Shown here: positions 2 to 9,831 of the stretch, piece by piece
Layout: each line of letters begins with the position of its first letter
How positions within the stretch are numbered: position 1 is the first letter of the stretch
Source: a virus
Strand: one strand, 5' to 3'
Virus record (IMG/VR): IMGVR_UViG_3300012936_000148
Location: 1-25,625 of that record
Length of the DNA stretch: 25,625 nt
Notes under the pieces: generated by a model
What the model saw: only the letters and a program-made list of their open reading frames with translations
What the model was told of the DNA's origin: nothing
The model's database searches: none
Program-made: the position numbers and the translations under genes

Positions 2-373
2 TTCGACGTAGGTGATCTTCTCCTGATTGATGCTGAAATTTTGGTGATCACTTCCGTTTCTGGTAAGGACATCACAGTTACTCGTGGACAGTATGCAACT
101 TCTGCTGCTTCTCACGCTGCTGGCGCTAACATCACTCTGATTGAACCCGCTGGTACTTCTTCTACCCTGAACGAAGGTTCCACCCTTACTGACTCTGACA
201 CTACTGTTACTGTAACTTCTGTTGCAACTCTGGGTGCTACCACCAACTCCTACATCGAGATCGACGATGAGATCATGCAGGTTACTGGCGTAAGCGGTAA
301 CGACCTGACTGTCTCCCGTGCTCAACTCGGTACTTCTGCTGCTTCTCACACTGACGGTGTTGCCGTTGATCTG
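2..373 (+). repeat. Tandem 78-residue repeat inside tail sheath gene
   Basis: Two copies of a beta-rich module are visible, spaced exactly 234 bases. The first copy (2-139) is cut by the window edge and the second spans about 140-373. Aligned cores are IDAEILVITSVSGKD against IDDEIMQVTGVSGND, then TVTRGQYATSAASH against TVSRAQLGTSAASH. The DNA is also similar around the TSAASH stretch, so the duplication may be fairly recent or kept alike by codon bias. More copies may lie upstream of the window. Confidence 0.85.
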
Positions 374-2449
374 AGAACTGTAACTGCTGCCAAGACGATC
401 ATCGACGAGGAAACCTCCACTGGTGTTACTCCTCCCCTGATCAAGAACGAAGACGAGTACGAAGCAACTACCGAGACTGCTGCTAACAACTGGAAGTGGG
501 CTGCTAGAAACCCTGGTCAGTATGGTAACAGCATCAGAGTCGTAATGACTGACGCTGGTCCTGACCAAGTTCTTCACCTTGCAGAACCTGCCGCTGCTGC
601 TGCTGAGTGGGAAATGACCCCTGGCGCTGGCGTATCTTTCTCCGCTGGAAACATCTACGGTAAAGTTTACTCCTACTCCTTGGTTGTAACTCTTTCTCCT
701 GGCGCAAGTCTGGTTGGTGAGTTCAATGCCGACAACTTCTTTACCGCTAACGCTGGTAACGTAACTGGTCGCGTCATGGCATACGATCCTGCCAAGCGCA
801 CACTCGAACTGACTGTTGACAACACTTCTTCGGATCACCTCTCTGTTGGCGATACCATCACTGAACTCGCAAATAACAGCGGTTCTGCTGGTGCTGCTAC
901 TGGCGACAGCGCAGTTGTTTCTACCGTCAAGCGTAGACTGACTGTTGTTCTGGAAGAAGGTTCTAAGGACTTCTATGCTAACCTCACGATCAAGGATTCT
1001 AGCACTGTAACCTCTGGCGAAAACGCTGGTGACAACGTTACTGTTAGCGCCGTTGAGAGCGAGTACATCAGCAGAATCTACGGTCCTGGTCAGAAGTGGG
1101 CATCCGTTGCCGAGCGTCCTGGTACTTCCCAGTATGCTGCTGAGCGTGGTGGTTTCCGCGACCTGATGCACATCCTCGTCATTGATGGCGACGGTGGTAT
1201 CACTGGCGTTCCTGGTTCAGTTCTTGAAAAGTTCACTAACCTTTCTAAGGCAAGAGACGCTAAGACTGCACAAGGTGCAAACCTCTACTATAAGGATGTC
1301 ATCAAGGCGAACTCTGCGTATCTCTTCTGGGGTGCTCATGAGAACATCAAGATGTTCGATGTAAACACTGGTGCTACTGGTGACATCGGTTCTGCCGTAC
1401 TGAACAGAAAGTTTGACCTGTTCAAGAACGACTACTCCATCAAGTCCATTGATGATCCTACTGGAACCAACCTGAGATCTATTCCTCTGGTTAACTCCAA
1501 GAACACTTCTACCTTGAAGTATCAACTTCGCGGTGGTGTTGATGGTTACACTGCTGAGCGTGACAAGCTCTTTGATTCTTACGATCTGTTCTCTGATCCT
1601 GAGACCGAAGAACTGGATTACATCATCATGGGACCTGCAATGTCCAACGATGATGACTCTGTTGCTAAGGCACAGAAGATGATCGACCTTGCAGAAACCA
1701 GACAGGACTGCATGGCATTCATCTCCGCACCGAGAGACGCCATCATTGGTGTACCTAGCAGCCACGAGATCGTGAACAAGACTGTCGAATACTTCGACAA
1801 ACTGTCTTCTTCCTCTTACGCTGTATTTGATAACAACTACAAGTATGTTTATGACAAGTATAACGACAAGTATCGTTATCTTCCCATGAACGCTGACATT
1901 GCTGGTCTTATCCTCGACACCGCAATCGAAGCAGAACCTTGGTTCTCCCCTGCTGGATTCAGCAGAGGTCAGATCCGTAACGCTGTGAAACTTGCATACT
2001 CTCCGCTCAAAGATGAGCGCGACAGACTGTACGCTTCCAGAGTTAACCCTATCGTCGCCTTCCCTGGTGAAGGTATTGTTCTCTTCGGAGACAAGACTGG
2101 ACTGGCAACACCTTCTGCCTTCGACCGTATCAACGTTCGTAGACTGTTCCTGGTGATTGAAAGAGCAATTAGTGATGCTGCTAAGTCCCAACTCTTTGAA
2201 ATCAACGATGAGTTTACTCGTCAGTCCTTCAAGGATGTTGTTGACCCCTATCTGAGAGGAGTCCAGAGCCGCCGTGGTATCGAAGATTATCTGGTTGTGT
2301 GCGACAGCACCAACAACCCCGATGATGCCGTTGACCGTGGTGAGTTCTTTGCAGAGATCTTCGTGAAGCCGACCCGCTCCATCAACTTCATTACTCTCCG
2401 CTTTACCGCAACCCGTACTGGCGCATCATTCGCTGAGATCGTCGGTTGA
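2..2449 (+). CDS. gp18: Tail sheath protein gp18 (5' end outside window)
   Basis: Subunit of the contractile sheath around the tail tube; contraction drives the tube into the host. The frame is open from base 2, so the gene is cut by the left edge and 815 codons are visible. The C-terminal half is typical T4-type sheath: the LDYIIMGPAMSND stretch, the DCMAFISAPRD strand, the NVRRLFLVIERAI helix near 2130-2170, and a terminal part with SRRGIEDYLVVCD and the INFITLRFTATRTG strand. The visible part alone is longer than T4 gp18 (659 aa). The excess lies at the N-terminal side: a tandem repeat of 78 residues (bases 2-373) and a further beta-rich, Gly/Ala/Thr-rich section (about 620-1060) that look like surface domains inserted in the sheath fold. 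A UUCG hairpin follows the stop. Identity is firm; the function of the inserted domains is unknown. Confidence 0.95.
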   Translation, partial: FDVGDLLLIDAEILVITSVSGKDITVTRGQYATSAASHAAGANITLIEPAGTSSTLNEGSTLTDSDTTVTVTSVATLGATTNSYIEIDDEIMQVTGVSGNDLTVSRAQLGTSAASHTDGVAVDLRTVTAAKTIIDEETSTGVTPPLIKNEDEYEATTETAANNWKWAARNPGQYGNSIRVVMTDAGPDQVLHLAEPAAAAAEWEMTPGAGVSFSAGNIYGKVYSYSLVVTLSPGASLVGEFNADNFFTANAGNVTGRVMAYDPAKRTLELTVDNTSSDHLSVGDTITELANNSGSAGAATGDSAVVSTVKRRLTVVLEEGSKDFYANLTIKDSSTVTSGENAGDNVTVSAVESEYISRIYGPGQKWASVAERPGTSQYAAERGGFRDLMHILVIDGDGGITGVPGSVLEKFTNLSKARDAKTAQGANLYYKDVIKANSAYLFWGAHENIKMFDVNTGATGDIGSAVLNRKFDLFKNDYSIKSIDDPTGTNLRSIPLVNSKNTSTLKYQLRGGVDGYTAERDKLFDSYDLFSDPETEELDYIIMGPAMSNDDDSVAKAQKMIDLAETRQDCMAFISAPRDAIIGVPSSHEIVNKTVEYFDKLSSSSYAVFDNNYKYVYDKYNDKYRYLPMNADIAGLILDTAIEAEPWFSPAGFSRGQIRNAVKLAYSPLKDERDRLYASRVNPIVAFPGEGIVLFGDKTGLATPSAFDRINVRRLFLVIERAISDAAKSQLFEINDEFTRQSFKDVVDPYLRGVQSRRGIEDYLVVCDSTNNPDDAVDRGEFFAEIFVKPTRSINFITLRFTATRTGASFAEIVG

Positions 2450-2455
2450 TTCATT

Positions 2456-2473
2456 GGGGTCCTTCGGGACCCC
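2456..2473 (+). terminator. UUCG-capped hairpin after gp18
   Basis: A perfect 7-bp stem GGGGTCC/GGACCCC encloses a TTCG loop, giving the very stable C(UUCG)G tetraloop, 7 bases after the gp18 stop codon. The following sequence is C/T-rich but lacks a clean T run. It may therefore terminate weakly or protect the 3' end of the sheath mRNA rather than stop all transcription into gp19. Confidence 0.7.
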
Positions 2474-2521
2474 TACCCTTCTCCCCTTTCATTCATCAAC
2501 ATTCCCCAGGAGTAATATCCA

Positions 2522-3256
2522 ATGTCAGACCCAGTAAGAAGAGGTGGCAATCGCCGCCGTAACGCATCCAGGCAGGAGGGAACGGAAACCTCTCTGTCAA
2601 TCATGAATTTTAGGAATCAGATTCAGGATCTTGCAAGACCTAATCTATTCCAAGTTCAAATCGAATTCCCCGACATCGACGGTGGTGACTCAGGTCGTCC
2701 CGATGGCGGTAGAGATCGCGGTAGAGGCGGCAGAGGCCGTAGAGGTAGAAACAAGAACCAGGATACCAACCTGTCTACCTTCCTTGTGAAAGCAGCAAAC
2801 CTTCCTGCTTCAACTATCGGTGTGATCGAAGTACCTTTCAGAGGTCGTCAGCTCAAAATCGCTGGTGATAGAACCTTTGAACCATGGACTGTCACCGTCA
2901 TGAACGACGAGGCAATGCAACTTCGCACCAAGTTTGAAGGATGGGCGCGTGCTATCCAGGAACTTAGCATGAACTATCAGCGTGCTGATACGATTGCTAA
3001 CTACCAAGCAACTGCTCGTGTGTTCCACTACGACAGACAGAACGGTGCCAACGGTGCTTATCAGTTTGAAGGTATCTGGCCTTCTAACATCTCTGCCATT
3101 GACCTGGCATGGGATAGCAACGACACCGCTGAGGAATATACCGTTGAGTTCCAAGTTCAATACTGGGAGCCTACTACGGATATTAACCAACCTCATGGTC
3201 GTCAGAGACGCAGAAGAAACCGTAACCGTAGAGGTAGAGGCGGTAGAGATAGCTGA
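2522..3256 (+). CDS. gp19: Tail tube protein gp19 with Arg/Gly-rich extensions
   Basis: Monomer of the inner tail tube through which DNA passes. The core matches the T4 gp19 family: NFRNQIQDLARPNLFQVQIEFP at the N-terminus, LPASTIGVIEVPFRGRQLKIAGDRTFEPWTVTV in the middle and EEYTVEFQVQYWEP at the end (each named here only as a landmark). AGGAG at 2508-2512 sets the start at 2522. The protein has 244 residues against 163 in T4. Three basic Arg/Gly-rich pieces account for essentially all the excess: residues 6-18, an internal loop at about 53-80, and the C-terminal tail at 226-243. Such segments are unexpected in a tube protein. The gene sits between sheath and portal as in T4. Confidence 0.93.
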   Translation: MSDPVRRGGNRRRNASRQEGTETSLSIMNFRNQIQDLARPNLFQVQIEFPDIDGGDSGRPDGGRDRGRGGRGRRGRNKNQDTNLSTFLVKAANLPASTIGVIEVPFRGRQLKIAGDRTFEPWTVTVMNDEAMQLRTKFEGWARAIQELSMNYQRADTIANYQATARVFHYDRQNGANGAYQFEGIWPSNISAIDLAWDSNDTAEEYTVEFQVQYWEPTTDINQPHGRQRRRRNRNRRGRGGRDS

Positions 3257-9261: not shown

Positions 9262-9831
9262 ATGACTTACTACCAGGACGCAGATAATACTGCTAGATGG
9301 GAAAAACAAATCGAGAATAGGAACTTTCTATCGCCTATTGGATTCAAGATGTTGCTTGAACAATTCCCGAAGGTTCCATATTTCTCTCAATCTGCCAACA
9401 TTCCTGGCATGGGTCTCAACACTGTTGAGCAACCCACTATGTTAGGGCGTCCTATTCCTTGGGATGCTCATGGTCTGAACTATGAACCGTTCAACCTGAC
9501 GTTCCTGGTGGACGAGAACTTAGAAAACTATCTGATCATTCACAACTGGATGAAGGGTATCAGTGGTGGTGATGCTACGTGGGAACGTGGAGACTATGAG
9601 AATGAGTTCCTACCACGTTGTGATGGTTCTCTTGCTGTCATGAATTCTAACATGACAACTAACTTCTTTATCAACTTCAAGGATCTATTTCCTGTGTCAT
9701 TGAATGCGTTGGAATTTAATGCTACAATAGATGGTACAGAGTATGCCACGGCGTCAGTCGAATTCAGGTATACTGCATTTGAAATCCAAGACAAAGATGG
9801 CAAGCGGAGGAAACTCTTGAATGACTCTTGA
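9262..9831 (+). CDS. gp3: Tail completion / sheath stabiliser protein, gp3-like
   Basis: A 189-residue protein with the tail-tube fold pattern: FPKVPYFSQSANIPGMGLNTVEQPT, then PIPWDAHGLNYEPFNLTFLVDENLENYLIIHNWMKG (landmarks at about residues 35-60 and 64-99), then a strand-rich end with SVEFRYTAFEIQ. T4 gp3 caps the tail tube and belongs to the tube-protein superfamily with similar size (176 aa). Cyanomyoviruses usually carry gp3 just before uvsY, as here. A second tube-like paralogue is the alternative. It overlaps uvsY by 11 bases, so a virion gene is coupled to a recombination gene. Confidence 0.7.
   Translation: MTYYQDADNTARWEKQIENRNFLSPIGFKMLLEQFPKVPYFSQSANIPGMGLNTVEQPTMLGRPIPWDAHGLNYEPFNLTFLVDENLENYLIIHNWMKGISGGDATWERGDYENEFLPRCDGSLAVMNSNMTTNFFINFKDLFPVSLNALEFNATIDGTEYATASVEFRYTAFEIQDKDGKRRKLLNDS

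Follow-up and report, generated by a model that had tools for sequence, protein, structure and literature searches.

In the window, by which we mean the whole analysed stretch of 25,625 nt, gene 19 occupies positions 2522–3256 on the plus strand and encodes a protein of 244 amino acids that sequence and model evidence identify as a tail tube protein of the T4 gp19 type. The assignment draws on (i) Pfam and PHROGs matches (PF06841, Phage_T4_gp19, 30.5 bits at a cut-off of 28.2; phrog_45, tail tube, 8.6e-64), (ii) matches to solved structures, which place the protein in the same type, and (iii) the gene order sheath gp18–tube gp19–portal gp20, which is that annotated in S-WAM1, S-SZBM1, and P-TIM40. 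The AF2 model of the window protein matches the T4 tube (5w5f) with a VIA Z of 10.2 and a Foldseek value of 4e-10. Residues 36–216 superpose on residues 14–163 of T4 gp19, identity to 5w5f is 37% over 140 aligned residues, and the tube β-sandwich with its flanking helix is present in the model; the AF2 models are of moderate confidence (mean pLDDT 64 and 69). An earlier, sequence-only reading had picked the right gene but gave it the span 2537–3253, which begins at codon 6.

Upstream lies gene 18 for the tail sheath protein (positions 2–2449, plus strand, 5′ end beyond the window edge), recognized by Phage_sheath_1, Phage_sheath_1C, and phrog_23 (6e-112). At positions 2–400, the N-terminal part of the sheath carries a repeated TSAASH-type module that matches tail fibre and other tail families in PHROGs (phrog_1101, phrog_8469), which suggests a domain common to sheaths and fibres. 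Opposite the sheath gene, the minus strand has long open frames of 390 and 324 aa between positions 2 and 2191, probably an effect of codon composition. A second tube-fold gene at 9262–9831, gp3 (annotated as tail completion protein in S-WAM1), is devoid of basic arms.

The window tube protein shares its fold, its Pfam and PHROGs matches, and the sheath–tube–portal order with the T4 gp19 family, but differs from T4 gp19 by about 80 extra residues contained in three basic arms predicted to be disordered. These are, all on the plus strand, an N-terminal arm (residues 1–27, positions 2522–2602, net charge +3), an insertion in the β1–β2 loop (residues 50–84, positions 2669–2773, net charge +3) between predicted strands β1 (41–48) and β2 (84–91), and a C-terminal tail with an RNRN motif (residues 217–244, positions 3170–3253, net charge +8). 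The 90 residues of the arms contain 24 Arg, 1 Lys, and 17 Gly; the loop is merely moderately basic because Asp is also present there, and the core of the protein has a net charge of about −6, opposite in sign to the arms. Disorder of the three Arg-rich segments is predicted from pLDDT values below 50 at residues 1–25, 54–82, and 224–244; such values also occur at residues 36–38, outside these segments. The RG/RR-rich residues 6–18, 53–80, and 226–243 are as the sequence-only reading described them, and its attribution of the excess over T4 gp19 to these segments agrees with the structure alignment, in which about 80 of the 81 extra residues belong to the N-arm, the loop, and the C-tail. Other Arg-rich segments of this kind were found neither in the window nor in the 83.5-kb contig behind L017, and a match of the loop to SERBP1 in a PDB sequence search (E ~0.15) was discarded as a low-complexity match.

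We compared gp19 across IMG/VR contigs and cyanophages, with at least 145 distinct proteins listed from three scans. All three basic segments occur together in one clade of at least about 12 IMG/VR contigs (L006–L017) from uncultured marine cyanophages, hereafter the RG clade, and are jointly basic in every complete member. Charges within the clade are +3 to +5 for the N-arm (L008 is cut 5′ of it), +3 to +6 for the loop, and +7 to +9 for the C-tail; the gp19 of L006 is nearly identical to that of the window. Among the 145 distinct gp19 proteins listed, a C-tail charge above +1 is seen solely in the RG clade and no convergent basic gp19 occurs outside it. We checked whether most cyanophage gp19 proteins carry the same segments; with one clade among the 145 listed, they do not, and the basic addition is unusual among cyanophages. 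In the literature searched, we found no published description of an Arg-rich cyanophage gp19.

The closest cultured relative is S-WAM1 (gp19 identity about 59%), and over the full alignment the gp19 proteins of S-WAM1, S-SZBM1, and P-TIM40 (Kyanoviridae) are 55–58% identical to that of the window. They have an N-arm, shorter in P-TIM40, and a β1–β2 insertion of similar length at the same sites. In contrast to the window protein, however, their loop is acidic (−5 to −7), their N-arm is near neutral, and their C-tail is slightly acidic and spans 11–13 residues where that of the window is long and basic. Across sister phages, the loop is about as long and ranges from acidic to near neutral. In the tree, the RG clade forms one side of a fully supported branch, with S-WAM1 and L114 as its sister. 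A partial state is seen in this sister group, where gp19 of L114, L115, and L118 combines a basic N-arm (MASPRKTGRTPRENKRQRPG, +5) with an acidic loop and a short C-tail; the basic N-arm of L114 beside an acidic loop indicates that the N-arm can be basic independently. S-WAM1 (L185) also encodes, at 40428–41846 near the small terminase gene, a hypothetical 472-aa protein with a net charge of about +49, which is poorly conserved in RG-clade contigs.

Within the RG clade, the net charge of the arms is kept at +14 to +17 while residues change. Arg and Lys swap freely, the RNRN motif of the C-tail is nearly conserved, and dN/dS in the arms is 0.14–0.42 in five of six pairs and 0.83 in one pair of low divergence, compared with 0.09–0.22 in the gp19 core. 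By this sequence comparison, the conserved feature of the arms is charge rather than a motif, and the arms are under purifying selection. The description of the segments as basic and disordered is borne out by charge and pLDDT, but their RGG-like character is not: window gp19 has three RGG repeats and the divergent members L009–L017 none or one. Because RGG repeats are limited to the window and the relative closest to it, and because Arg and Lys are exchanged, we rejected an RGG/GAR nucleic-acid-binding motif. The similarity of DNA noted earlier between the internal and C-terminal segments is real, in that the 13-mer CCGTAGAGGTAGA, coding for RRGR, occurs on the plus strand at exactly two places in the window, 2737–2749 and 3226–3238. 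Once amino acids and codon usage are taken into account, however, a shared run of 13 nt has P ~0.04, and relatives are without the 13-mer but share shorter runs of 7–11 nt; the inference of an internal duplication is therefore weak, and we rejected it as the 13-mer is compatible with codon usage.

Where the arms point can be judged from the topology of the family. In published tube structures the lumen is lined by the inner sheet, and both β1 and the last strand, β6.2, belong to the outer sheet; the β1–β2 loop contacts the sheath in the case of V. cholerae Hcp and, in lambda, the external Ig-like domain, and most contractile systems have the N-loop in contact with the sheath (PMC8718954). The model of window gp19 has the same strand order, with the three arms at low confidence. 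Because this topology puts their sites on outer elements, we infer that all three arms lie on the outer, sheath-facing side of the tube.

The sheath has changed as well. In related phages, the conserved core of the sheath contacts the tube (PMC9230969), and the inner handshake domain of the Milano sheath consists of residues 1–23 and the last 123 residues (PMC10811340). The C-terminal 290 residues of the window sheath (positions 1577–2449, plus strand) include this tube-facing domain and, judged by net charge and fixed Asp and Glu, are acidified in the RG clade. Over these 290 residues, RG-clade sheaths have a net charge of −11 to −14 and those of sisters 0 to −6; over the last 150 (C150), the values are −2 to −5 and 0 to +4, with S-WAM1, S-SZBM1, and P-TIM40 at +1 to +3. 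In ORF numbering, the fixed acidic changes are S639D, N643E, H672E, T/V/L/Q725D, N745D, V/I/T761E, and A/P/S774D; position 745 is Asn in 47 of 47 non-RG sequences and Asp in the RG clade. Two long helices are predicted in the handshake domain. The first (positions 2120–2188, residues 182–204 of the C-terminal fragment) carries T/V/L/Q725D and the second (positions 2210–2269, residues 212–231) N745D and, in five of seven, K744N; the changes at 639 and 643 lie in the body part. Fixed acidic and basic shifts stand at 9:1 in the C-terminal region and at 7:13 in the remaining sheath (Fisher P 0.007). In the portal, gp67-like, and protease controls they are roughly balanced; for this reason, and because no further Arg-rich segments of the kind turned up in the window or the 83.5-kb contig, we rejected a proteome-wide basic or acidic drift.

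Phylogenetic contrasts place both changes on one branch, the RG stem: among 98 contrasts, those for the tube arms and for sheath C150 both reach their greatest size there, with opposite sign. With the RG stem removed, the tube-arm/C150 correlation across cyanophages vanishes (r 0.001); a general correlation is thus rejected and the link to the sheath rests on one evolutionary event. Some relatives break the charge rule, such as L165 with arms at −12 and sheath C150 at −2. Arm and tube-core charge, by comparison, are anticorrelated family-wide (r −0.38; r −0.34, P 0.0006 without the RG stem). The RG-clade tube core is more acidic at 136, 143, 156, 168, 171, 183, and 216, with Arg no longer present at 133, 136, and 168 and new acidic residues at 136, 156, 168, and 171. 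The anticorrelation speaks for arms that attach to the surface of the tube, whether or not they also engage the sheath. Between S-WAM1 and the window, identity is 95.5% for gp20 and 96% for gp23 but 70% for gp18 and 58.5% for gp19, and the long RG contigs are 92% identical to S-WAM1 in the upstream gp17 and about 65% in gp18. With such low identity between conserved gp17 and gp20, gp18 and gp19 form a divergent block (positions 2–3256 of the window), which by its sequence could reflect a module exchange or joint fast evolution; gp19 is fast-evolving in general.

We consider it about evenly balanced whether this T4-type tube protein uses its three external, disordered, basic arms as electrostatic cross-links between tube and sheath. 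Each hexameric ring would carry 18 arms, placed along its edges and in the space between tube and sheath. They would probably attach to the tube's own acidified exterior (helix 129–150 and residues 156–183) and probably also to the handshake domain on the inside of the sheath, likewise acidified. As flexible cross-links they would assist polymerisation of the sheath around the tube and keep it in place until contraction pulls it away; arm–sheath binding and its possible consequences for assembly or contraction are inferred. A wider claim, that the polarity of the tail flipped as a unit in one genus-level group of cyanophages, the disordered arms changing from acidic or neutral to basic and the tube core and inner sheath face becoming more acidic, is put forward tentatively and is less likely than not.

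A doubtful though not negligible competitor confines the arms to the tube, which they would stabilise by attaching to the acidic exterior of adjacent subunits and rings, the sheath change being unrelated drift. Both the family-wide anticorrelation and the Arg losses and acid gains of the RG cores speak for it, since acidic core changes by themselves could explain the arm charge through self-binding, with the sheath change coincidental; it leaves unexplained why the acid shift of the sheath is the largest of 98 contrasts, falls on the same branch, and is limited to the tube-facing end. Near-neutral drift of low-complexity sequence, in loops that tolerate any polar residues, is unlikely. Sister loops and N-arms do differ widely in sequence and charge, so that length outweighs sequence there, and one pair has a dN/dS of 0.83, but the other five pairs, the charge retained through residue change, the nearly conserved RNRN, and the joint basicity of the arms in every complete clade member stand against it.

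The arms might instead serve after contraction, when the bare tube would present them as a cationic brush to the cyanobacterial envelope, whose outer membrane is acidic, or to its peptidoglycan or inner membrane, and they could aid penetration or anchoring. Gram-negative envelopes are anionic, which suits such a role; nevertheless it does not predict acidification of either sheath or tube core, and the arms are restricted to a single clade, with nothing found to point to a host difference, so that we regard it as quite improbable. Least credible are lumenal arms in contact with DNA or the tape measure protein, even though Arg-rich peptides generally bind DNA. By published topology the three sites lie on outer elements, phage lumens are typically negative, as suits the passage of DNA (PMC8718954), and by our arithmetic about 91 residues from each of six subunits would overfill a lumen 40 Å wide and 40 Å high. 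The sequence-only reading had left lumen and sheath as alternatives; tube topology and the acidified tube-facing sheath domain favour the external placement over the lumenal one.

For the preferred reading of arms as tube–sheath cross-links, the comparison with the nearest relatives suggests a tube–sheath interface that is electrostatically inverted and new at the scale of a genus. If the wider, tentative claim of a polarity flip is true, sheath and tube would be a lock-and-key module that can be exchanged only as a pair, with the arms serving as a fuzzy electrostatic clutch that tunes the timing of tail contraction. Relatives whose portals are 95% identical differ here in arm sign and in the charge of the sheath inner face, so that the reversal of polarity, the compatibility of modules, and the part that disordered arms play in holding or triggering a contractile tail become testable.

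Sheath–tube contacts are reported to be electrostatic in the contractile systems that we surveyed, with opposite polarities in different systems and no documented path between them. In phiKp24, a positive patch on the outer tube faces a negative patch on the C-terminal helix of the sheath, the polarity that our reading proposes for the RG clade, with a predicted positive tube surface and a candidate negative patch on a helix in the sheath C-terminal domain; phiKp24 is, however, an unrelated jumbo phage, its charge sits on the folded tube surface rather than on disordered arms, and its interface also has one salt bridge of opposite sense (PMC9700779). In the R-type pyocin (PMC6088184) and Milano (PMC10811340), the sheath inner domain is likewise attached electrostatically but with the opposite polarity, the tube being negative and the sheath positive. 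Both polarities are thus already known among contractile systems; what appears to be new in the RG clade is that polarity changes among phages so closely related, and that disordered arms are used.
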